Below are positions 1,286 to 12,302 of a DNA stretch of 56,731 bases, piece after piece. Both the position numbers and the translations under genes were made by a program. The notes below the pieces were generated by a model. That model saw nothing but the letters and a program-made list of their open reading frames with translations. It had not been told where the DNA came from and did no database searches. The number at the start of each line of letters is the position of its first letter. Position 1 is the stretch's first letter. The DNA lies in assembly GCA_024399615.1 (NCBI GenBank), contig JAKSNQ010000002.1, forward strand, positions 1 through 56,731, in the 5' to 3' direction. The stretch comes from Paludibacteraceae bacterium (GTDB lineage Bacteria; Bacteroidota; Bacteroidia; Bacteroidales; Paludibacteraceae).

Positions 1286-2584
1286 TCATTTGGTGCTCTG
1301 CGCATCTATGCGGAGCTGCATGTTGCGAATGTAGGTGGTGTCTATTCGACAATGCGTTCGTGGGCAGTTGTCCAAGATATCGAAGATGGCCTTGTGTATG
1401 GTGGCATAATCCATTCCCTCGCGCCCGCGCAGGTCGCGTATAGAAAAATAGGTGTAGTGGTCCGCCTCGGCATAGTCCATCACGTTTTGCCAATTGTCCG
1501 GTGCATCAAACCCGAGCCATGACTCGGCACGTCCGTCCTGTCCCATCTGCTCGGAATGTGCCATTTTCTTGTATGGCCAGAACGTGTAACCGATATTGTG
1601 CTCGCTCATGATGCTGCACATTTCCGCCACCCATGTGAGGGTGTTATGTCCGGTTTCGCCCATGTACATGCACAGCTGCGTGCTATCCCTCCAGTCGATG
1701 AAATCCTGTATTCCTTCCAGCGTGGATGGTTGTCCGTAGCGATGGCAGGTCCACATGATGTTATCATCAAAATGCCAGTCGGTGAACACTCCCCTGAAGG
1801 TACCGTTCCATTGTGCACCTCCCAACAGGATGATATGGTGCTGATCGACCTTGCGAATAGCGGCAACGGTACGCTTGTAGAGAGGCTCCAGTTGGGCATT
1901 CAGTTGGGCTAAATCCTGCTGGAAATAGTGCGCAATGGGTTCGTTTATCAGTTCGTAACCCAGGATCACCGGTTCGTCATGGTAACGCTCGGCTATCCTG
2001 GTCCAGATGTCCACGAAGAGCTGCCGGGAGGTCTCGGATACCATCAGCCAAGGGTAGCCATAGCTGTCATCGATATTATCTCCGGTCTGTCCTCCGGGCG
2101 CATCATGCATGTCCAGAATCAGTCGCAGATGATGGCGTCGGCACCATGCTATCGTGCTATCCATTCGTATGAATCCCTCCTCGGGATTGTTGTTTCCCAG
2201 ATAGTAATCGGTGGTAAAGAGCTTGTAGTGGAAGGGCAGTCGGATGGTGTTGGCCCCGGTAGCGGCGATGAAGCAGATGTCGTCCTCGGTGATATACTCC
2301 TCTTTCCATCTCTGCCAGAACCGTGCCGTCTCGTCCGGGCCTATCAGTTGGCAGAAGACCTGATCGATCTGAGCGGCCGCATTGCAGCGTCGGAAACGGA
2401 ACATATATCCCTCCGGGTTCAGCCAGTTCCCCAGATTGGTTCCGCGTATGAAAAATGTGTCGCCCTCGGCGTCAAGTATGTGTGCCCCGGCTACATGCAG
2501 ATAGTTGGGACCGGTTTCTGGCGTGACGGAGCAACCCGTCATGAGGAGCAGCAATGCTGCCAAAAACGGAAAGAATAGTTTCAT
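1286..2584 (-). CDS. Glycoside hydrolase family 5 (cellulase-like) lipoprotein
   Basis: The product has 432 residues with a lipoprotein signal peptide ending MTGC (Cys18). The (beta/alpha)8 catalytic domain runs from about residue 25 to 400. Signatures visible are RGTNLGNW near the start, an RLPFHY strand, the acid/base glutamate in ELINEP (Glu215) and the nucleophile in MGETG (Glu310). By family it hydrolyses a beta-linked polysaccharide or glucoside; the exact substrate cannot be read. The signal suggests it faces the periplasm or outer surface. It lies downstream of rpsO after a clear terminator. No transporter pair is adjacent, so it is not an obvious part of a polysaccharide utilization locus here. 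Confidence 0.88.
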   Translation of the reverse strand: MKLFFPFLAALLLLMTGCSVTPETGPNYLHVAGAHILDAEGDTFFIRGTNLGNWLNPEGYMFRFRRCNAAAQIDQVFCQLIGPDETARFWQRWKEEYITEDDICFIAATGANTIRLPFHYKLFTTDYYLGNNNPEEGFIRMDSTIAWCRRHHLRLILDMHDAPGGQTGDNIDDSYGYPWLMVSETSRQLFVDIWTRIAERYHDEPVILGYELINEPIAHYFQQDLAQLNAQLEPLYKRTVAAIRKVDQHHIILLGGAQWNGTFRGVFTDWHFDDNIMWTCHRYGQPSTLEGIQDFIDWRDSTQLCMYMGETGHNTLTWVAEMCSIMSEHNIGYTFWPYKKMAHSEQMGQDGRAESWLGFDAPDNWQNVMDYAEADHYTYFSIRDLRGREGMDYATIHKAIFDILDNCPRTHCRIDTTYIRNMQLRIDAQSTK

Positions 2585-2627
2585 ACCTTTGAAAATGATG
2601 GTTCAGTAGAAGTGCATCTAAAAACAA

Positions 2628-2657
2628 AAATCGTCCGCCATGACAGACGGACGATTT
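2628..2657 (-). terminator. Rho-independent terminator of rpsO
   Basis: Arms aaatcgtccg (2628-2637) and cggacgattt (2648-2657) pair perfectly over ten bases. On the minus strand the hairpin is followed by a T-rich tract (complement of 2621-2630). It lies 16 bases after the rpsO stop codon. Confidence 0.85.
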
Positions 2658-2673
2658 CCTTTCTCGCCAAGTA

Positions 2674-2943
2674 TTACTTACGAATACCAAGAGCCTTGAT
2701 GATAGCGCGATAACGCTCGATGTCCTGAGCCTTCAGGTAGTCAAGCATAGAACGACGCTTACCAACGAGTGCAGCCAATGCATGAGCGGTACCTACGTCC
2801 TTGTGGTTCTTCTTCATATGCTCCGTCAAGTGCTTGATACGGAAGGTGAAGAGTGCGATCTGGCTCTCAGCAGAGCCGGTGTTCTTGGCATCGTTGCCAT
2901 ACTGAGCAAAAATCTCAGCTTTTTTTGCGGAATCCAAATACAT
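2674..2943 (-). CDS. rpsO: 30S ribosomal protein uS15
   Basis: The product has 89 residues, the usual length of uS15, which binds the central domain of 16S rRNA early in 30S assembly. Recognisable blocks are the TGSAESQIA stretch and LVGKRRSMLDYL near the C-terminus. The gene is monocistronic: it has its own promoter (3065-3096) and a terminator directly after the stop. The ATG at 2943 has no Shine-Dalgarno sequence. The leader of about 115 bases contains a hairpin that could serve autoregulation (see separate entry). Confidence 0.97.
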   Translation of the reverse strand: MYLDSAKKAEIFAQYGNDAKNTGSAESQIALFTFRIKHLTEHMKKNHKDVGTAHALAALVGKRRSMLDYLKAQDIERYRAIIKALGIRK

Positions 2944-2975
2944 GGTAGTTGTGTAATAAAAATGTTAAACGATGA

Positions 2976-3010
2976 TGCCCTTGTGGTAACCTGACGTATG
3001 CACAAAGGCA
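2976..3010 (-). promoter_or_regulatory. Hairpin in the rpsO leader, candidate S15 autoregulatory site
   Basis: Arms 2976-2985 (tgcccttgtg) and 3001-3010 (cacaaaggca) pair at nine of ten positions around a 15-base loop, inside the predicted rpsO 5' leader. In several bacterial groups uS15 represses its own mRNA through leader structures that differ between lineages. That this hairpin does so is an inference. Confidence 0.4.
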
Positions 3011-3064
3011 CATTTATAAATCATTTTGTGCTCTCGCCGAAGCGCATAACTCCAAAATGCGCTG

Positions 3065-3096
3065 CAAAGGTACAGCTTTTTTTTGAAATGACCAAA
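3065..3096 (-). promoter_or_regulatory. Promoter of rpsO (extended Bacteroidota type)
   Basis: Read on the minus strand: -33 box TTTG (3093-3096) within TTTGGTCATTTCA, a 20-base spacer, and -7 box TACCTTTG (3065-3072) followed by CAGC. Start of transcription is expected near 3059. It belongs to a group of six near-identical promoters in this window. Confidence 0.85.
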
Positions 3097-3173
3097 TTTT
3101 TTGGCGAAATAGTTGCGGGAACATCTGATTTTTGTCCCGTTACCGCTCGCCGAGAGCAGACAATAGTCGTTGA

Positions 3174-3926
3174 TTAGCGTGCCGCGATGATAGCCTCGAA
3201 CTTCTCAGCTACCAATGCAGCGCCACCAATCAGGCCACCGTCGATGTCAGGGCAAGAGAAGAGCTCTGCTGCATTCTTCTCGTTGCATGAACCACCATAG
3301 AGGATAGTCGTGTCGTCTGCAACCTGAGCGTCGTACTTCTCAGCTACGAGTGAACGGATGTATGCGTGAATCTCCTGTGCCTGCTCAGGAGTAGCAGTCA
3401 GGCCGGTACCGATAGCCCATACAGGTTCGTAAGCGAGCGTGATATTCTTCCACTCCTCAGCGGTGAGGTTAAATACAGATCCCTCGAGTTGTGCCTTAAC
3501 GACTTCGTTCTGCTTGCCAGCTTCGCGCTCCTCTTTTACCTCGCCGATGCAGAAGATCACCTTGAGGTTGTTGGCGAGTGCCAGTTTCACTTTCTCAGCG
3601 AGCACAGCATAGTCCTCGTGATAGTATGCACGACGCTCAGAGTGGCCCAAGATGCAGTACTCAGCGCCGGTAGAAGCCACCATCGCAGCAGATACCTCAC
3701 CGGTGTAAGCACCCTTCTCCTTGTCAGCGCAGTTCTCAGCAGCCACCTTGATAGCAGAGTCCTTCAGGAGCTCAGCTACAGTTGCCAAGTGGATGAATGG
3801 TGTGCCGATTACGACAGCACAATTAGGGTTCTTAACGTCATTTTTCAGTTCGGTAGCCAGAGCTACACCTTCTTGCAGGGTCTTGTTCATTTTCCAGTTG
3901 CCTGCAACCATTTTGATTCTTGCCAT
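3174..3926 (-). CDS. tpiA: Triosephosphate isomerase
   Basis: The product has 250 residues, the family's usual length. It interconverts dihydroxyacetone phosphate and glyceraldehyde 3-phosphate in glycolysis and gluconeogenesis, in the cytosol. Visible catalytic elements are the lysine in GNWKMN, the histidine in ILGHSERR and the glutamate in [11 protein letters not shown] (the loop that closes over the substrate). The phosphate-binding ends GGS and GGLIGGAAL are also present. It is the last gene of a probable operon with the DoxX-family gene 33 bases upstream; no separate promoter is obvious. Confidence 0.97.
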
Positions 3927-3959
3927 AATAAATTTATTTTTAAAATGTTAAATTATTGA

Positions 3960-5063
3960 TTATCGATTTCTTAAATTATATTTGTCCATAACGATACCAT
4001 TCTGCATGGTGACGATACCGGGATTGGCTCGCACGATGGTCTTAAGCGTGACAGGGTCGCATGAGTAAACAGGGTAGTCATAGCCGGTAGCCAGACGGAA
4101 TGCCTCAATCTCCTCTTCGCCCGAACCTGTGATGAGGTAGAATGGCCGGTCGTTAGCCTCGGCCTCGGCCGCCATCTCGTTGAGTCGGGTCGCCTGACGC
4201 AGGTCGGTCTTCTCGACCTTGTAGAGGATAGCCAATGTCACTTCGCGCTCGTCGTAGAGCACATCATCGGTGATGTCCTCATAGTCCTCATCGTAGATGA
4301 TGAAATCGTGAACAGGCGCCTCGTAGCCCTTCTTGATGAGTGTGGATTTTTGGTCAACAAAAGTCCATGAGGGGTCATCTTTCGGGTAATCGGCCAAGGT
4401 GAACTCCTGCTCCACGCCATCTTTCGCATAGATAAAGGTGATGGCATATTCGTCTTGTGGTGCTCCCTCGGGAATCTCCATCAGTTCGGGGATGTTGTTT
4501 CCGATGCGGTACGGACGGAAATCCATAACCGGCAGATGGGTGCGGCTGAAGGCCATGAATCCCATCACAAAACCGAGCGCCAAGCAGCAGATGCCGAGTT
4601 CGACAACCGGCGTGAACAGGCGCGGAATGTACTTGCGCGTCAGCAGCAAAACCGCCACGAGCACGAGGAGCACGATGTTTTTCCAGAAGGTCTGCCAATT
4701 GGTGAGCACCAACGCGTCGCCGAAACACCCACAGTCGGACACGGGGTTCTCCAGCGCGATGTAGAGCGTGAGTGGCGTCATGAAGAGCATCATCGCCAAG
4801 GCCAGCCATGAGGTGACTTTGGTCCACACATTGGTCAGCAGGAGCACACCGAGCACAAACTCGAATGCAATGAGGCCCCATGCCGCTACTTCTGCCAGAG
4901 GGGTCAGCGAGGTGAAGAATCCGCCGAAAGCGTTGAGATAATCCTCAATCTTGTAGGTGGTGCCCAGAGGGTCGATGGCTTTGACAAAACCGGAGAAAAT
5001 AAAGGTTATGCCCAGCAGTACACGGGCGATGGAACCGATGAAGTGGAGTGGTTTATTGTTCAT
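3960..5063 (-). CDS. DoxX/MauE-family membrane protein with degenerate thioredoxin-like C-terminus
   Basis: The preferred start is the ATG at 5063, giving 367 residues beginning MNNKPLHFIG; it overlaps the upstream DUF1599 gene by 11 bases, a sign of coupling. A longer reading from 5165 is possible but adds a poor N-terminus. The first 190 residues hold four to five membrane segments of the DoxX/MauE type, with a CGCFG motif in a loop after the third. The C-terminal half is soluble. Its last 60 residues (FYLITGSG through RANPGIVTMQNG) look like the end of a thioredoxin fold but lack a CxxC. The family is often tied to redox or sulfur handling at the membrane; the exact role is unknown. Confidence 0.75.
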   Translation of the reverse strand: MNNKPLHFIGSIARVLLGITFIFSGFVKAIDPLGTTYKIEDYLNAFGGFFTSLTPLAEVAAWGLIAFEFVLGVLLLTNVWTKVTSWLALAMMLFMTPLTLYIALENPVSDCGCFGDALVLTNWQTFWKNIVLLVLVAVLLLTRKYIPRLFTPVVELGICCLALGFVMGFMAFSRTHLPVMDFRPYRIGNNIPELMEIPEGAPQDEYAITFIYAKDGVEQEFTLADYPKDDPSWTFVDQKSTLIKKGYEAPVHDFIIYDEDYEDITDDVLYDEREVTLAILYKVEKTDLRQATRLNEMAAEAEANDRPFYLITGSGEEEIEAFRLATGYDYPVYSCDPVTLKTIVRANPGIVTMQNGIVMDKYNLRNR

Positions 5064-5598
5064 TTTCCAGCATTTTGATAAGGTAAAAAACAGAATAGTT
5101 GAGCATGTCAAAATAGTTTCCGTCAGCCCCTTCGGAGATGAGTGTTTGACCATCGTTTGCCGCAATCTGCTTGTTTCGATTGATCTTGGTGAGGATGATG
5201 TCGGTCAGGGAGGAGGGTAACATGTCGCGCCATGCCTCGCCGTAGTCGTGATTTTTTTTCATCATCAGCGCTTTGGCTTCGCCTGCATACTTGTCATAGA
5301 GGGCAGTTGCTTCTTCGGCAGACATGTCCACGGTATCGGCATAGCCTTTCTCGAGCTGAATGAGTCCCATGATGGAATAGTTGACGATGGCCATCAGTTC
5401 TCCCTGAATGCTATCGCCGATGAGGTTGACCCCGGTGGTCTCGATGGTGCGAATGCGCTTGGCCTTGATGAAGAGTTGGTCATTGACGGTCTGTGGACGC
5501 ATGATTCGCCATGATGGACCATAATCCTTCATCTTCAGCACGTACACCTTGCGGCAGCTGTCAATCACCTGATCGTATTGTTTGCTTGTATTTGGCAT
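5053..5598 (-). CDS. DUF1599 domain protein (internally duplicated)
   Basis: The product has 181 residues and matches the conserved Bacteroidota DUF1599 family, whose biochemical function is not established. The protein is a tandem duplication: KDYGPSWRIMRP near residue 25 aligns with HDYGEAWRDMLP near residue 120, each followed by a helix with a lysine/arginine-rich end (KAKRIRTIE and KINRNKQIA). The HDYG-type motif recalls MazG-like nucleotide pyrophosphohydrolases, but the similarity is too weak for a functional claim. It sits 43 bases after hisS and overlaps the DoxX-family gene by 11 bases. Likely cytosolic. Confidence 0.75.
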   Translation of the reverse strand: MPNTSKQYDQVIDSCRKVYVLKMKDYGPSWRIMRPQTVNDQLFIKAKRIRTIETTGVNLIGDSIQGELMAIVNYSIMGLIQLEKGYADTVDMSAEEATALYDKYAGEAKALMMKKNHDYGEAWRDMLPSSLTDIILTKINRNKQIAANDGQTLISEGADGNYFDMLNYSVFYLIKMLENEQ

Positions 5599-5641
5599 GT
5601 TGTTTGGTTGTTTAGCCCGAGGACGGTAGGAAAGGGGGCGT

Positions 5642-7012
5642 TCAGCCCTTCATTATCTCGAGCAGTTGTGAGAGTGTGACTTTGCGCTGCTCGCCGGAGG
5701 TCATGTTTTTCAGCATCACCACCTGCTCAGCCATCTCGTCCCCTCCTACGATAGCGACGAATGGGATGGCCTTGCTGTCGGCGTAACCCATCTGTTTTTT
5801 CATCTTGGTAGCTTCGGGGAAGACCTCCACGTTGAGTCCCTCCGCACGGAGTTGCTTTGCCCACGTGAGTGCGTATCGCAGTTCGTCGGTACCGAATGTA
5901 GCGAAAAGCAGCTGTGTGCTCTGAAGCACATCTTGTGGATAGAGGTCCAGTTCCGTCAGCACATCGTAGATACGATCCGCACCAAACGAGATGCCTACAC
6001 CCGACACACCCGGCATTCCGAAGATGCCGGTAAGGTTGTCGTATCGTCCACCGCCGGTGATAGAGCCCATCTGCACATCCAGCGCCTTCACCTCAAAGAT
6101 GGCTCCGGTATAGTAGTTCAAACCGCGTGCCAAGGTCAGGTCCAACTCGATGTTCAGGTTGACCCCTGCAGCCTCACACAGTCCAAAGATGGTCTCTGTC
6201 TCCTCTATACCCTTGACTCCCGTCTCGCTGCCGGCCAGTACCGTGCGCAGAGTCGCCAGCTTGTCGGCATTGGTGCCGCTCAGCGCCAGGATAGGCTGCA
6301 GGGCCTCCACTGCCTCTTGGCTCAATCCCTTGCTCAGCAACTCTTCGTTCACCTTGTCGAGGCCAATCTTGTCCATCTTGTCGATGGCCACGGTGATGTC
6401 CACAATGCGCTCAGGGCAGCCGATGTACTCGGCAATGCCGGCCAAAATCTTGCGGTTGTTCAGTTTCAGACAAACGCGTATGCCGAGGCGGCGATACACC
6501 TCCTCTACGATCTGAATCAACTCCAGTTCGCTGACCAGCGAGTCTGTTCCCACGACGTCAACGTCGCACTGGTAAAACTCGCGATAGCGCCCTTTCTGTG
6601 GGCGGTCTGCTCGCCATACCGGCTGGATCTGATAGCGCTTGAACGGAAAACTGATATCATTGCGGTACTGTGTGACGAAGCGCGCGAAAGGTACGGTGAG
6701 GTCGTAACGCAGACCTTTCTCGCTCACCTTGCCGGTAAGTGCACCGATGGTTTGGGTCTGTAGTGCTTCGCCATCGAGGGCGGCTTTCCAGTCTCCCGAG
6801 TTGAGAATCTTAAACAAGAGTTTGTCTCCCTCTTCGCCGTACTTGCCCATCAGGGTGGACAGGTTTTCAAGAGCAGGTGTCTCGATCTGCTGAAAACCAT
6901 ACAGACGGAAAACGGATTTGATTGTGTCGAAAATATAGTTGCGACGTGCCATCTGCAGTGGCGAAAAGTCGCGCGTGCCCTTAGGAATAGAGGGCTTGGT
7001 AATCTGAGCCAT
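5642..7012 (-). CDS. hisS: Histidine--tRNA ligase
   Basis: The product has 456 residues, near the family's usual length. It charges tRNA-His with histidine in the cytosol. Class II motif 2 is seen in [15 protein letters not shown]; the histidine-specific block appears as ARGLNYYTG; motif 3 is in [10 protein letters not shown]. The C-terminal 100 residues form the anticodon-binding domain ([18 protein letters not shown]). It lies 46 bases after the Kdo-transferase gene and 43 bases before the DUF1599 gene, suggesting one transcript. A short hairpin in the 7034-7053 gap lacks a T-run and is unlikely to stop transcription. Confidence 0.97.
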
Positions 7013-7058
7013 GAGTTAATAATGTATGATTTAGCGGGGACCCAAAGTCCCCCGTTGG

Positions 7059-8183
7059 TTATCGTAGTGTAGCGTCGAGGATGGTGTCGGAAGTGCCGAT
7101 ATCCTCGAGGATATATCGCTTGGCATTGGCACCTATCGTCTCGTGCTCGGCAAGCGCATGACTGAGTGCGTTCTCCAGCGAGCGACTGTCTTTTACACAG
7201 ATGGCGCCTCCCTGTTCCAACAGGTGGACGGCCTCTCGTGAGTGGCGATAATGTGTGCCAAAGATTACGGGCAGGGACTGCGCCGCCGGTTCTACCACGT
7301 TGTGTACCCCCTGGTCAAACCCTCCGCCGATATATGCTACATGTCCGTAACGATAGCATAATGCGAGGTTGACCGGTTTGTCAATCAGTAGCGTCTGGCA
7401 GGCTGTGAGGTTCTGCATAGTAGCCTGCGAAAGGCGAACAAAGCGTCCCTGAAACAAGTTGAAGATGAAGTGTATGTGCTCGTCGGATATGTCGTGAGGC
7501 GCCAGCACCAGCTTGAGTTCGGGATGCTCGTGCATATATTCGGCCAACAGCCGCTCGTCGCTTGGCCAGGTGTCCGCGGCTACAATCAACTGATGGCTGA
7601 CAGGCAGGATGATGCTGTCTGGGGTGACGCGTGGTTCGACAAATCGCTCCAGCTGAATGACCTCCCGCCGCTGCGTGCTCAGGTCGTATGCGCGATCAAC
7701 GAGTGTGTTGCCGGCTACGATTGTGTTGGTAATCTTTTGGTTTTCCAGACGGTCGCGTGAGGCCTCGTCTTGCACAAAAATGATATTGAAGCACTTCAGG
7801 GTCTTGCGCTCAGACCATCTGCTCCATCGCATACTGCTGTGTCTCTCGCCAATCAGGGCATTCAGCAGATAGACTTGCTGTTCGGCCTTGCGTAACGCAC
7901 GAATATATGCTTCTACATGGGCATATGATACGAAGAAAGCCATCTCAATCTTCGTGTTTTCGAGCCATTGCTTCACATTCTTTCGGTTGGCCTTGGGGAG
8001 TACCTGCGCCTCGTCAATAAGCGAATCCGTCTTGTGCCGTTCACATGCTTCGGGAGAAGAGAAGGTGACAAGAATCCTCTTGTATCCATAGCGATGACGG
8101 ATGCGCTCCATCAGCGGATACACCTGTTCCCATTCGCTTTGCGAGGTTACGTGAAACCAGATATATGTATAATCTTGCGACAT
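7059..8183 (-). CDS. waaA: 3-deoxy-D-manno-octulosonic acid transferase (WaaA/KdtA family), short N-terminus
   Basis: The product has 374 residues, about 40 shorter than typical family members. The enzyme transfers Kdo from CMP-Kdo to lipid A precursor at the inner face of the cytoplasmic membrane. The C-terminal GT-B half is clear: GGGFDQGVHNVVEPAAQ followed by PVIFGTHYRHSREA. The N-terminal half begins directly with IWFHVTSQSEWEQ, which aligns with the family's WFHASLGEFEQ stretch and keeps the glutamate expected to act as catalytic base. The usual N-terminal membrane-anchor helix is missing and no in-frame upstream extension is available. The gene heads the minus-strand operon and shares a divergent promoter with tsaD. 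Confidence 0.85.
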   Translation of the reverse strand: MSQDYTYIWFHVTSQSEWEQVYPLMERIRHRYGYKRILVTFSSPEACERHKTDSLIDEAQVLPKANRKNVKQWLENTKIEMAFFVSYAHVEAYIRALRKAEQQVYLLNALIGERHSSMRWSRWSERKTLKCFNIIFVQDEASRDRLENQKITNTIVAGNTLVDRAYDLSTQRREVIQLERFVEPRVTPDSIILPVSHQLIVAADTWPSDERLLAEYMHEHPELKLVLAPHDISDEHIHFIFNLFQGRFVRLSQATMQNLTACQTLLIDKPVNLALCYRYGHVAYIGGGFDQGVHNVVEPAAQSLPVIFGTHYRHSREAVHLLEQGGAICVKDSRSLENALSHALAEHETIGANAKRYILEDIGTSDTILDATLR

Positions 8184-8294
8184 TATTTTATAAGATACAT
8201 GTGCCTACGCGGCAGGGTGAGCGAGCGCACCTGTGAGTGCGTATATGTGCCCGAATGTGCGCCTGCGTGCGCAGCGTATGTGCATATTTCGGTG

Positions 8295-8325
8295 CAAAGA
8301 TACACATTTTTTTGCATATATCAAA
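8295..8325 (-). promoter_or_regulatory. Promoter of the waaA-hisS operon
   Basis: Minus strand: -7 box TATCTTTG (8295-8302) and -33 box TTTG (8322-8325), spacer 19. Transcription should start near 8289. The leader of about 105 bases is rich in alternating GTGCGC-type sequence. The promoter overlaps that of tsaD on the other strand. Confidence 0.75.
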
Positions 8326-8342
8326 AAAAAATAGTAATTTTG
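8311..8342 (+). promoter_or_regulatory. Promoter of tsaD
   Basis: Plus strand: -33 box TTTG (8311-8314), 20-base spacer, -7 box TAATTTTG (8335-8342). The start is expected near 8348. The boxes interleave with the divergent waaA promoter, so the two polymerases should compete for the same DNA. Confidence 0.8.
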
Positions 8343-8393
8343 CGGCAAAAATGTGCGCAGTTCGCTAACTGGACTTTGCAAACCTGAGAAAAT

Positions 8394-9518
8394 ATGTCGA
8401 AAGAAACCATTTTATTAGCTATAGAATCGTCGTGTGATGACACGTCTGCGGCGGTGATTCGTGATGGCCTGTTGCTCAGCAATGTGACGGCCTCTCAGTC
8501 GGTACATGAGGAGTATGGTGGCGTGGTGCCGGAGTTGGCCAGCCGCGCACATCAGCAGAATATCGTTCCTGTGATAGATACGGCTCTCAAGCGTGCCGGT
8601 GTGGACAAGTCGGACCTGTCCGCAATCGCTTTCACTCGTGGTCCCGGACTGTTGGGTTCGCTGCTGGTGGGCACCTCTTTTGCCAAGGGCCTGGCGTTGG
8701 GCGTGGCTGCAGCCAAGGGAGATGCTCAGTCAAAGGCGTGTCCCCTGGTCGAAGTGAACCATCTGCAGGGGCACATCATGGCACATTTTGTAGAGCCTTC
8801 TCCAGAGATGGTGCGGGCGGGCATGATCAAGGGCATGACTGAGGAGCAGTTGCCTCTCAAGCATCCCTCTTTCCCGTTTTTGTGTCTGCTGGTCAGTGGC
8901 GGAAACAGCCAAATCGTGCTGGTCAAGAGCCATCATGAGATGGAGATTATCGGTCAGACCATAGACGATGCTGCCGGCGAAGCGTTTGACAAGTGCGCCA
9001 AAGTGCTGGGCTTGCCTTATCCCGGTGGCCCATGGATTGACAAACTGGCCAAAGAAGGTAATCCGGAAGCCTTTCAGTTTGCCAAGCCCAATATCGCGGG
9101 CTACAACTATTCGTTCTCCGGTCTGAAGACATCGTTTCTGTACACGCTTCGCGACCTGATGAAGGCAGAGAACTTGGATTCGATCGAAGCCCTTTGTGAC
9201 GCGCATCCTCACCTGCAAAAAGACCTGTGCGCATCGCTGCAGAAAACGGTTATCGACATCCTTATGAAAAAACTGCGAAAGGCGGCCAAAGACCTGAATA
9301 TCAATACGGTGGCAGTGGCCGGGGGCGTGAGCGCCAATAGCGGTTTGCGTCAGGCCTTTCTGGATTATGGCAAGCGTTACCATGCGCATGTGTTTATCCC
9401 ACCATTCTCGTTTACGACCGACAATGCCGCCATGATTGCGCAAGCCGGGTACTACAAGTTCCTAGCAGGTGAGTATTGTTCGCTGGACAAGGCACCCTTC
9501 GCCAAAACGACCATTTGA
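8394..9518 (+). CDS. tsaD: tRNA N6-adenosine threonylcarbamoyltransferase TsaD
   Basis: The product has 374 residues. TsaD, with TsaB and TsaE, moves the threonylcarbamoyl group onto A37 of ANN-decoding tRNAs. Visible are the N-terminal ESSCDDTSAAV phosphate-binding stretch, the metal-binding histidines of NHLQGH (His123 and His127), LLVSGGNSQ, and the ASKH fold's GGVSANSGLR near the C-terminus. It is about 30 residues longer than the usual 340, owing to insertions near residues 108-116 and 135-157 around the metal site. It leads a two-gene unit with the exosortase fusion 30 bases downstream. Confidence 0.96.
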   Translation: MSKETILLAIESSCDDTSAAVIRDGLLLSNVTASQSVHEEYGGVVPELASRAHQQNIVPVIDTALKRAGVDKSDLSAIAFTRGPGLLGSLLVGTSFAKGLALGVAAAKGDAQSKACPLVEVNHLQGHIMAHFVEPSPEMVRAGMIKGMTEEQLPLKHPSFPFLCLLVSGGNSQIVLVKSHHEMEIIGQTIDDAAGEAFDKCAKVLGLPYPGGPWIDKLAKEGNPEAFQFAKPNIAGYNYSFSGLKTSFLYTLRDLMKAENLDSIEALCDAHPHLQKDLCASLQKTVIDILMKKLRKAAKDLNINTVAVAGGVSANSGLRQAFLDYGKRYHAHVFIPPFSFTTDNAAMIAQAGYYKFLAGEYCSLDKAPFAKTTI

Positions 9519-9548
9519 TCGTTTCGGAGGTGACGAATGCTATAGACA

Positions 9549-11321
9549 ATGTCTTCTATGAAGAAAATACTCGGTCCATATTACGACATACTCTTATTTG
9601 CAGTATGTATGATGGCAGCCAATTATTTCTGGAAACTCACCATTGTGAGCGATGAGATAATCAGGGACGGCAATGCCGGAATGGTTCTGTTTCTGGGCAT
9701 GAACCTGTCGCCCCTCTTCAATGTCGTTGCCGAACATACCGCTTCGTTGGTGTCGGCTCTTCTGCAATGGACCCGCCATGATGTGCACTATCTGCCCCCC
9801 TATACAATCCGTTTTGACGCGGGATTTACGATGAATATCGTATGGGGGTGCACGGCTTTGAAACAGTCGTTTATCTGGTTGGTTATCATGCTGTTTGCCC
9901 GTGGAGTTCAGTGGCGTAAACTGTGGTTTATTCCTTTGGGTTGGCTGGTGATTTACCTTTTTAATGACCTGCGCATCTATTGTATAGGTCAGTTCTGCTC
10001 GGCTCACCCCGACATGTTCTCGTTCTGGCACGACTATTTTTTCAAGTACCTGTTTTATTTCATCATCTTCATGCTATGGGTGTGGTGGAACGAAAAATTG
10101 GGTAAAAAACATTCTGCTACTCCATCTGTTACGGCGAAACAAACAGTCGGGAATGTGGCTCTTGTTTGGGGAGTAACAAGTGCCATGGGCCTGTTGTTGG
10201 GCAGTTGCTCTCCTTCCGTCGAGCGGCAATTAGGCGACCTGACAGAGCGTGTTTTTGCCGGTCAGAACGAACCGGGAGCTGTGGTCTTGGTGCATGATGC
10301 CACGCACGATATATGTGTGTGTACGGGTGTGGCAGATATGGAGCAGGGCAGGCCTGTCAATAGGCAGACTCTTTTCAATATCGCCTCCTGTTCCAAGCAG
10401 TTTACCGCCGTGTCGGTACTGCAACTGGTCGCCGCCGGTAAGGTTTGTCTGAATGCTCCGATAGCAGATTATTTCCCCGAATATACGCATCCGTTGTGGC
10501 AGAAAGTGACCATAGCACATCTGCTTTCTCACTCGTCCGGCATCCCTGATGCACGTGATTATCTGCCTCGTGAGAAGAAGGTGTATGGCGACGAGGAACT
10601 CGCTACGGAATATATGCAATGGGTGGATTCTCTGCATTTTGAACCCGGCACGGCGTATGAGTATATCAATCCTACGTTTGTACTACTGGGCCAACTGGTG
10701 GAACGTGTCAGTGGCGAACCATACACCGAGTACGTGTATCGTCATGTGCTGCAGCCGGCCGGTATGCTTCACTCAACGTTTTTTGATCCGGCCAATCCCA
10801 TCTTTGATGGCCATGCGCCGCAAGGTGCGAACACGTCGCATGGCTACGAGTATGCCGACGTAAGCGAAATGCCGGAGGAGCGACCGGCTTCTGTTGAGGC
10901 CGATATGCCCAAACAGTGGTATGAGTACGACTATGGTGAAGAAACCTTTTTTGCGACGCGTCCCGATGGCGGTCTGTACAGTTCAGCAGAAGACCTTCTG
11001 CGATGGGAGAACTATCTGCAGGCGCAAATGGCAGATACCACCTGTTTGGCTCGGTTGTTGCAGGATGCGATGCGTCCACATACCTGTGTGACAGGCAGCG
11101 TATGGAGCGATTATCAGAATCGTGAGGATACGTGGTATGGTTATGGTTGGTTTGTGGAACCGGAAAAAGGTTGCATTTATCACACGGGTGACAACGGGGG
11201 TTACAAGATATTGATAGCACGTTATCCTAAGAATGATGGTCTGCTAATTGTCTTGGCCAATCGTGCCGATTGGGATCGATATGCGTTCCAGACCCAAGTG
11301 GAAAAACTGATGGGTTGGTGA
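9549..11321 (+). CDS. Exosortase-family membrane protein fused to a serine beta-lactamase-fold hydrolase
   Basis: The product has 590 residues in two parts. Residues 1-182 are a multi-helix membrane domain with the exosortase/archaeosortase triad: Cys101 in WGCTALKQ, Arg142 in FNDLRIY and His161 in FWHDYF. Residues about 225-590 are a serine hydrolase of the class C beta-lactamase/PBP fold: SxxK at Ser280-Lys283 (SCSK), YxN at Tyr372-Asn374 (YIN), HTG at 545-547. Between them, residues about 202-220 form a hydrophobic stretch ending LLLGSC, which looks like a retained lipoprotein signal. Exosortases cut and re-attach C-terminal sorting signals of surface proteins; the hydrolase part would lie outside the cytoplasmic membrane. 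No sorting substrate is visible nearby. Whether the protein is cleaved into two parts is not known. Confidence 0.82.
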   Translation: MSSMKKILGPYYDILLFAVCMMAANYFWKLTIVSDEIIRDGNAGMVLFLGMNLSPLFNVVAEHTASLVSALLQWTRHDVHYLPPYTIRFDAGFTMNIVWGCTALKQSFIWLVIMLFARGVQWRKLWFIPLGWLVIYLFNDLRIYCIGQFCSAHPDMFSFWHDYFFKYLFYFIIFMLWVWWNEKLGKKHSATPSVTAKQTVGNVALVWGVTSAMGLLLGSCSPSVERQLGDLTERVFAGQNEPGAVVLVHDATHDICVCTGVADMEQGRPVNRQTLFNIASCSKQFTAVSVLQLVAAGKVCLNAPIADYFPEYTHPLWQKVTIAHLLSHSSGIPDARDYLPREKKVYGDEELATEYMQWVDSLHFEPGTAYEYINPTFVLLGQLVERVSGEPYTEYVYRHVLQPAGMLHSTFFDPANPIFDGHAPQGANTSHGYEYADVSEMPEERPASVEADMPKQWYEYDYGEETFFATRPDGGLYSSAEDLLRWENYLQAQMADTTCLARLLQDAMRPHTCVTGSVWSDYQNREDTWYGYGWFVEPEKGCIYHTGDNGGYKILIARYPKNDGLLIVLANRADWDRYAFQTQVEKLMGW

Positions 11322-11362
11322 GTCGTTACGGCGTCACAGGCATCTGTCATCTATAAAAAAAA

Positions 11363-11396
11363 GCGTGCTCGGGAGGATTGAAACCATCGAGCACGC
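11363..11396. terminator. Bidirectional terminator between the fusion gene and ypfJ
   Basis: Arms gcgtgctcg (11363-11371) and cgagcacgc (11388-11396) pair perfectly. An A-run precedes and a T-run follows, so it can end transcripts from both the plus-strand fusion gene and the minus-strand metallopeptidase. Confidence 0.85.
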
Positions 11397-11423
11397 TGTT
11401 TTTATACGCAGTTTTCGCTTGTG

Positions 11424-12302
11424 TTATCGCAAGAAATCGCCATATTTAGGCGAGAAGGAGTCTCCTTTACTGAGGTCACCTGTGGTGAGACCTTTTTTCA
11501 ACCAATGGTGACGCCACTCAGAACGTCCATGGTTGAAACTCTCAGGCACCTCGTACCCTTGCGCTTTTTTCTGCAGGTAGTCATCGCCGATTTTCATCGC
11601 CGCATTCAGGGCCTCGTCGATGTCACCATCTTCGATCGAGCCGAACATCTTGTTGTCGTGGTATGCCCACACGCCGGCATAGAAGTCGGCTTGTAACTCG
11701 AGTCGCACGCTGATCTGGTTGGCCTGCGTTTGGCTGACACGTGACATCTGATTGTGGGCTTGGCTGAGCGTACCCAGCAGGTACTGCACGTGGTGTCCTA
11801 CCTCGTGTGCGATGACGTAGGCATATGCGAAATCGCCATCTGCGCCCAATGTTTTGCGCATGTTCTTGAAGAAAGTGAGGTCGATATATACCTTCTGGTC
11901 AGCGGAACAGTAGAATGGACCGGTTTGAGCCGTAGCTCCGCCGCAACCAGACTGTACGCTACCGCTAAACAGGACCAGGCCCGGCGCCTGATATTCTCCC
12001 CAACCATTCTCACGGAACAGTTTGGTCCATACGTCCTCGGTACCCGCCAGGATTTGCTTGGAGAAATGTGCCAGTTCGTCGGTATCGGAAGTGTCGATGG
12101 AACTGTCAACAGCCGTTGTTTGCTGTTGTGCCATCTGGCTGCCTACATTGTTGATAACGTCTCCCAGGTCACCGCCTGTGAGGAATGTGAAGAGAGCTAT
12201 GATCAAGATGCCGCCGATGCCACCTATACCAGCCTTGGCACCACCTGACATTCTGCGGCGATCATCTACGTTGTTGCTTTCTCGTCGTCCGGTTAGATTC
12301 AT
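11424..12302 (-). CDS. ypfJ: YpfJ-family neutral zinc metallopeptidase
   Basis: The product has 292 residues. The N-terminus is basic and short, followed by one membrane helix (about residues 24-42), so the catalytic domain is membrane-tethered. The zinc motif is HEVGHH (His166, Glu167, His170), followed by the family's VQYLLG stretch and a downstream RLELQADFYAGVWA segment that supplies the third ligand region. The physiological substrate of this family is not settled. It lies alone, facing the exosortase fusion and separated from frdB by a terminator. Confidence 0.88.
   Translation of the reverse strand: MNLTGRRESNNVDDRRRMSGGAKAGIGGIGGILIIALFTFLTGGDLGDVINNVGSQMAQQQTTAVDSSIDTSDTDELAHFSKQILAGTEDVWTKLFRENGWGEYQAPGLVLFSGSVQSGCGGATAQTGPFYCSADQKVYIDLTFFKNMRKTLGADGDFAYAYVIAHEVGHHVQYLLGTLSQAHNQMSRVSQTQANQISVRLELQADFYAGVWAYHDNKMFGSIEDGDIDEALNAAMKIGDDYLQKKAQGYEVPESFNHGRSEWRHHWLKKGLTTGDLSKGDSFSPKYGDFLR

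Follow-up and report, generated by a model that had tools for sequence, protein, structure and literature searches.

The gene at 9549-11321 on the plus strand raises the question of what a single chain would do that begins as an exosortase, ends as a serine beta-lactamase-fold hydrolase and carries, at the join, what looks like the signal of a lipoprotein. Translation of the window, that is, of the whole 56,731-nucleotide stretch of DNA analysed here, gives at this place a single open frame of 590 residues without an interrupting stop codon, and the first-pass annotation's observation of this frame is sound. The reading that we put forward, and to which we give an even chance, is a lineage-specific fusion whose chain is cut at the internal lipobox into an exosortase and a lipoprotein hydrolase.

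The exosortase half comprises residues 1-188 (9549-10112, plus strand). Its membership of the exosortase/archaeosortase superfamily was confirmed at the sequence level by an HMM search, in which TIGR04178 matched residues 96-181 with 51.3 bits (cut-off 23), and 57 relatives could be aligned with it. In the resulting 58-row alignment, made up of the window and the relatives matching at E 1e-10 among the loci examined, three residues are identical in every row (58/58): Cys101 (9849-9851), the presumed nucleophile, Arg142 (9972-9974) and His161 (10029-10031), all on the plus strand. The hydropathy profile of residues 1-188 contains six hydrophobic peaks, two of which overlap (region 45-75). Exosortase X (XrtX, NF046081) is the best-scoring model, covering residues 59-188, but its 67.0 bits against a cut-off of 170 rule it out as the family of this half; XrtF (TIGR04128) reaches 46.1 bits, below its cut-off of 90. 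The half is like the TIGR04178 family, XrtX and XrtF in its size, its hydrophobic segments, its Cys, Arg and His residues and a superfamily score above the cut-off, and unlike XrtX and XrtF in scoring below both cut-offs, in its site after tsaD and, here, in its hydrolase extension. Among solved structures, no sequence matched the exosortase half at E 1. One exosortase was detected in the genome of the window.

The gene upstream (8394-9518, plus strand), which we take to be a relative of tsaD, marks a conserved site of the exosortase gene. The two lie on the same stretch in 23 of 27 loci (L009-L035), and in most of those examined for gene order the tsaD relative stands directly upstream of the exosortase, the exceptions being L069 and L073. 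A wider block at 5642-9518 in the window, with hisS and a glycosyltransferase-like gene on the minus strand and then tsaD, leading into the exosortase, on the plus strand, recurs in several relatives (L055, L062-L065); the names hisS, glycosyltransferase-like and tsaD are presumptive throughout. Behind the fusion gene lies an inverted repeat that is a possible terminator (11356-11403, without strand); its arms of 16 nt are 94% complementary, and runs of A and of T accompany it. It is absent from the list given by a terminator scan of the region because the loop limit of that scan was 8, whereas the loop here is 16.

The hydrolase half (residues 221-590 and the stop codon; 10209-11321, plus strand) belongs to PF00144, which matches residues 238-578 and gives the half alone 207.1 bits against a gathering cut-off of 27. 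Alignment with separate orthologues places its SxxK motif at residues 280-283 (10386-10397), YxN at residues 372-374 (10662-10670) and HTG at residues 545-547 (11181-11189), all on the plus strand, and all three are retained in each of five separate hydrolase orthologues. It shares this fold family and these motifs with the serine beta-lactamase/PBP-like hydrolases of PF00144. The best NCBIfam matches of the half are the AmpH DD-carboxypeptidase/endopeptidase (NF007943; 91.1 bits, cut-off 266) and the class C beta-lactamase (NF033085; 85.7 bits, cut-off 415), from which it differs in scoring below both cut-offs. The nearest solved sequence is 3tg9, named a penicillin-binding protein (E 1.2e-25). 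Besides the fusion gene, two further hydrolase loci in the genome of the window match this C-terminal half; a single search of viral contigs with the hydrolase half gave no match. The first-pass annotation had assigned both halves and named the Cys101, Arg142 and His161 residues and the SxxK, YxN and HTG motifs, and all of these assignments hold.

Between the two enzymes lie a linker of residues 189-202 (10113-10154), presumed to be cytoplasmic, a hydrophobic segment of residues 203-219 (10155-10205) and Cys220 (10206-10208), all on the plus strand. The hydrophobic segment, with a hydropathy of 1.70 over 17 residues, is followed by a lipobox-type pattern that ends at Cys220, as judged by what we take to be the lipobox consensus. 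The segment aligns with the N-terminal signals of the separate hydrolases, and Cys220 aligns with the Cys that ends the hydrophobic signal in four of these five proteins; the fifth, L008, has no Cys there. Two controls indicate how rarely the pattern arises: among 74 internal hydrophobic segments in window open reading frames of at least 100 residues it is present once, in the Cys220 segment, and it is present in none of 249 hydrophobic segments in 58 exosortases. The LLLGSC junction had already been described as lipobox-like and the gene as a union of two once-separate ones. Since the lipoprotein-type Cys is aligned in four of the five separate hydrolases, the junction is probably a retained lipoprotein signal, which lies inside the chain here (residues 203-220 of 590) and at the N-terminus in those four orthologues. 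We presume that the segment makes an extra membrane crossing and that Cys220 is the site of lipidation and cleavage.

The origin in two genes also agrees with the arrangement in relatives, where the parts lie apart. Among the matches listed, which in the family-genome search for the fusion go down to about 7e-39, a full-length match occurs in the genome of the window only, out of 358 family genomes; the same fusion was not found among the matches listed for 60 relatives or for the 357 other family genomes, the number of candidates being capped in some genomes. The longest other frames among the exosortase matches listed (G121 and G327) proved on inspection to be separate genes, and a contig search with the exosortase half gave two loci, both unfused; L034, which agrees with it in length, is apparently the contig G191:C43. 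All 57 aligned exosortase relatives end 3-30 residues past the position of window residue 183. A separate hydrolase gene with 46-56% identity is present, among the matches listed, in five other genomes of the genus (G010, G019, G023, G024 and G164). In the first four it lies on a different contig from the exosortase and in varying surroundings, and the gene after the exosortase end is not this hydrolase. A tree of 58 exosortases groups that of the window with five others (from G008, G010, G076, G141 and G197; support 99/95), all of which are unfused. Because these five and the relatives are unfused, sequence comparison makes the exosortase the inherited part and the fusion a later event, one that is probably both real and recent.

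The steps of the preferred reading, a fused chain that is cut at its internal lipobox, would be as follows. Comparison with the relatives has the exosortase gene after tsaD running in frame into a formerly separate lipoprotein hydrolase gene, and the fused chain is probably made from one message; the lack of promoter-like boxes in the region, given below, also favours this reading. The exosortase half would be an inner-membrane protein whose active site faces the periplasm and whose end lies on the cytoplasmic side, as suggested by the published exosortase model and by the loop charges, which amount to three Lys or Arg residues in residues 118-124 and one in residues 142-163. Residues 181-202, that is, the linker plus residues 181-188, are basic, with four Lys or Arg residues versus one acidic residue. 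This pattern would fit an exosortase that ends in the cytoplasm and a single further crossing, formed by the old lipoprotein signal together with the basic linker before it, by which the hydrolase would reach the periplasm. Lipoboxes are the targets of Lgt and signal peptidase II, which work on the outer side of the inner membrane; these enzymes would most likely handle Cys220 like that of an ordinary prolipoprotein, cutting before it. Since they could plausibly accept any segment that comes in from the cytoplasmic side and finishes in a lipobox, regardless of what stands before it, the fused chain would be cut, an outcome that we regard as about evenly balanced, and one gene would then yield an exosortase and a separate lipoprotein hydrolase. 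The exosortase half would probably retain its ancestral task of cutting small secreted proteins of the PIG[DE]G type, and the hydrolase would keep its own separate role. Several points speak against a lineage-specific fusion with cutting: it was seen in one draft genome only, the lipobox lies inside a chain, L008 has no Cys at the aligned position and the codon score is below zero at the join.

Alternatively, the chain may remain whole as a stable two-headed enzyme, with the hydrolase tethered to the exosortase and both acting on the same substrate or acceptor. Both active sites are kept in one frame, and both would face the periplasm if the topology given above is correct. Exosortase fusions are also known, with EpsI and with CAAX-protease-like domains (in the passage of PMC1569441 that treats them), and a glycosyltransferase-like fusion, named by eye, is present in G480. 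Nevertheless, we regard a two-headed enzyme as unlikely. The lipobox is retained at the join; close hydrolase orthologues were detected, among the matches listed, in only five genomes of the genus besides that of the window, versus an exosortase in 158 of 178; and G164 has a separate hydrolase and no detected exosortase. Because the orthologues are rare, the exosortase is common in the genus and G164 is without one, the hydrolase is not a part of the sorting machinery in general. These counts do not support the coupled processing and attachment that had been proposed for the two halves, and the functional tie between them is weak.

The join could instead be an assembly or sequencing error between two genes that are separate in the living genome. 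The genome is a draft of 84 contigs and 76% complete, the genes are separate in relatives, and the codon score of the fusion frame drops below zero across the join (10089-10209), as it also does at 10269-10359. The first-pass annotation had counted absence of the fusion from every other genome as one of two joint marks of such an error, and that absence does hold within the genomes searched, among the matches listed. However, across the join the fusion frame either ranks first or is the sole one open: it has the best codon score in 19 of the 20 stretches listed for 9909-10479, and at 10359 another frame scores slightly better but contains a stop. No repeats of at least 9 nt were reported at 10000-10300, so that the join offers no repeat able to mislead an assembler, and an assembly chimera at a repeat was rejected for this reason. 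By our reasoning, more than one error would be required to give this appearance from two ordinary genes. We therefore consider an error of this kind quite improbable.

The least probable of the readings is that translation starts a second time within the 3' end of the exosortase part, which would yield an ordinary lipoprotein hydrolase beside or instead of the long chain: in-frame alternative start codons (TTG and GTG) do occur shortly before the signal, but no TAnnTTTG box, which we take to be the Bacteroidetes-type promoter box, is present on the plus strand at 9301-10400, a scan of 9300-11600 for sigma-70-type promoters gave three matches against a chance mean of 2.6, which is no excess, and no other evidence points to it.

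An exosortase is expected to have target proteins with a C-terminal sorting signal in the same genome. A scan of the genome for such proteins had been suggested at the outset; it gave nothing with the known PID-CTERM model (NF046080), which had no match in the genome of the window at E 10, and one weak match (E 0.0029) with a new profile, A2. Since PID-CTERM is above its 26-bit cut-off in none of 151 genus genomes, it was ruled out as the known signal here. Some of its best weak matches are the ends of small proteins of secreted type, in which a PIG[DE]G motif is followed by a hydrophobic stretch and then a basic tail, and A2 was built from nine PIG[DE]G-type tails of genus proteins. At E 0.01, A2 matches 136 of 178 genus genomes. 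The match in the genome of the window lies close to the C-terminal end of a protein of 243 residues, where the motif takes the variant form PVGDA; in the window itself, A2 found no signal (best E 1.3). The signal resembles PID-CTERM in its Pro-Ile motif, hydrophobic stretch and basic end, and differs in its usual motif, PIG[DE]G. Ten signal proteins, including that of the genome of the window, fall below the cut-off of every NCBIfam model that they match. The PID-CTERM model matches three of these ten weakly, with 16-21 bits, and does not match the candidate of the window's genome.

Two other searches were set aside. When the window and the loci examined were scanned coarsely by hydropathy for sorting signals, a single hit was obtained, which was taken as unrelated. 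The PIG[DE]G pattern at the DNA level occurs at four places in the genome of the window, none of which is a C-terminal signal: two lie in an open reading frame without a fitting tail and two have no open reading frame that reads them. In a genus sample this DNA pattern was not clearly commoner than its backward control, and the case for the signal therefore rests on the protein profile.

The signal and the exosortase tend to occur in the same genomes. At E 0.001, where the genome of the window counts as signal-negative, an exosortase is present in 281 of the 358 family genomes and the A2 signal in 153. The signal was found in 144 of the 281 genomes with an exosortase vs nine of the 77 without (Fisher p 7e-11), and, when genomes with a completeness of 90% or more and a contamination of 5% or less are taken, in 62 of 136 vs one of 31 (p 2e-6), both p values being too small because the genomes share ancestry. 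The nine genomes with the signal and no exosortase are G012, G032, G035, G068, G085, G110, G127, G332 and G370. Within the genus, the counts are 112 of 158 with an exosortase vs six of 20 without, and in the family outside the genus 32 of 123 vs three of 57; A2 favours the genus because it was built from it. About half of the exosortase genomes have no signal match. One of the nine, G035 (L161), is 97% complete and has two signal matches (E 2e-10 and 3e-5) with no detected exosortase, which may reflect a gap in the assembly, the loss of the gene or a case that departs from the pairing.

Outside the family, 80 genomes were searched, and the signal was found in two of 40 with an XrtX-model match and in none of 40 without, 20 of the latter being listed as such and 20 taken as such from their absence among the matches listed. 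Both positives (G403 and G493; L169-L172) belong to one genus, so that these genomes lend the pairing little support outside the family. Their proteins of 80-104 residues, of which G493 has several, close with TPIGSG followed by a hydrophobic stretch and a basic tail. On the strength of the co-occurrence within the family, we infer that the exosortase half probably cuts small secreted PIG[DE]G-type proteins.

The signal genes, among them those of the relatives at L161-L168 and L121-L150, have large neighbours. In all nine loci examined for this purpose, eight of them picked among good matches and not at random, the signal gene adjoins a large frame that reads in its direction and has 760-2404 codons, some of these frames running off the stretch; for L162 and L167, the position of the small signal gene was taken from the signal matches. 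Among 31 loci with at most 1.5 kb of flank, 24 show a co-directional neighbour of at least 300 codons. When the nine large neighbours were searched with TIGR04183, the type IX secretion tail, four were above the cut-off, one was just under it and four had no match. In the genome of the window (L160, contig C24), the 243-residue secreted-type PVGDA protein is encoded at 532-1263, directly before a frame at 1306-8265. The latter, of 2319 codons, encodes Listeria-Bacteroides/InlB-type repeats together with a type IX secretion tail that scores 29.6 bits with TIGR04183 (cut-off 23) and 16.9 with the Pfam model of this tail, which is below its cut-off of 27.

Taken this far, the tsaD-linked exosortase may cut PIG[DE]G proteins that are made beside giant surface proteins, several of them with type IX tails, such that two export routes would serve one surface structure; we offer this tentatively, at slightly less than an even chance. 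We place similarly, just short of the midpoint, the proposal that in this species the exosortase is made as a bacterial polyprotein from which signal peptidase II would free the lipoprotein hydrolase. That both apply together, as an undescribed surface-display pair and a polyprotein-borne exosortase, is doubtful.

There are partial precedents for such a chain. The fusions of the exosortase-like EpsH with EpsI and with CAAX-protease-like domains, as that passage of PMC1569441 presents them, likewise have an extra domain on an exosortase in one chain. They differ from the present case, in which the partner is a serine hydrolase that has a lipoprotein-type signal in four of five relatives and whose signal is kept inside the chain. 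In G480, a frame of 486 residues (L173, 1074-2534) has a first part that is glycosyltransferase-like by eye and an exosortase as its last part. The Bradyrhizobium cytochrome b/c1 precursor (fbcH) is reportedly one chain that gives two membrane-linked proteins by signal-peptidase cutting, and the chain described here would be alike in giving two membrane-linked proteins from one bacterial chain. It would be unlike fbcH in that signal peptidase I and a respiratory complex are said to be involved there, whereas signal peptidase II and two unrelated enzymes would be involved here.

For Bacteroidota exosortases, the available text of PMC10936215 ties XrtF to the colonisation of surfaces without settling what its substrates are, and according to a 2025 paper the XrtF targets have yet to be identified (PMC12188702). 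The XrtF gene is merely listed in the relevant part of PMC12645872, and a passage of PMC7468200 speculates that exosortase systems may be connected with type IX linking sugars. In the literature covered, mostly outside subscription journals, we recognised nothing as the PIG[DE]G signal or as an exosortase-hydrolase fusion.

The interest of the fusion lies in its retained lipoprotein signal. Should cutting at the internal lipobox occur, a single chain would supply two unrelated envelope enzymes via the ordinary lipoprotein pathway. The PIG[DE]G signal provides candidate targets for a Bacteroidota exosortase other than XrtF, beside large surface-type proteins, and the tsaD-linked exosortase with its own C-terminal signal beside giant surface-type proteins is a lead at least equally worthwhile.
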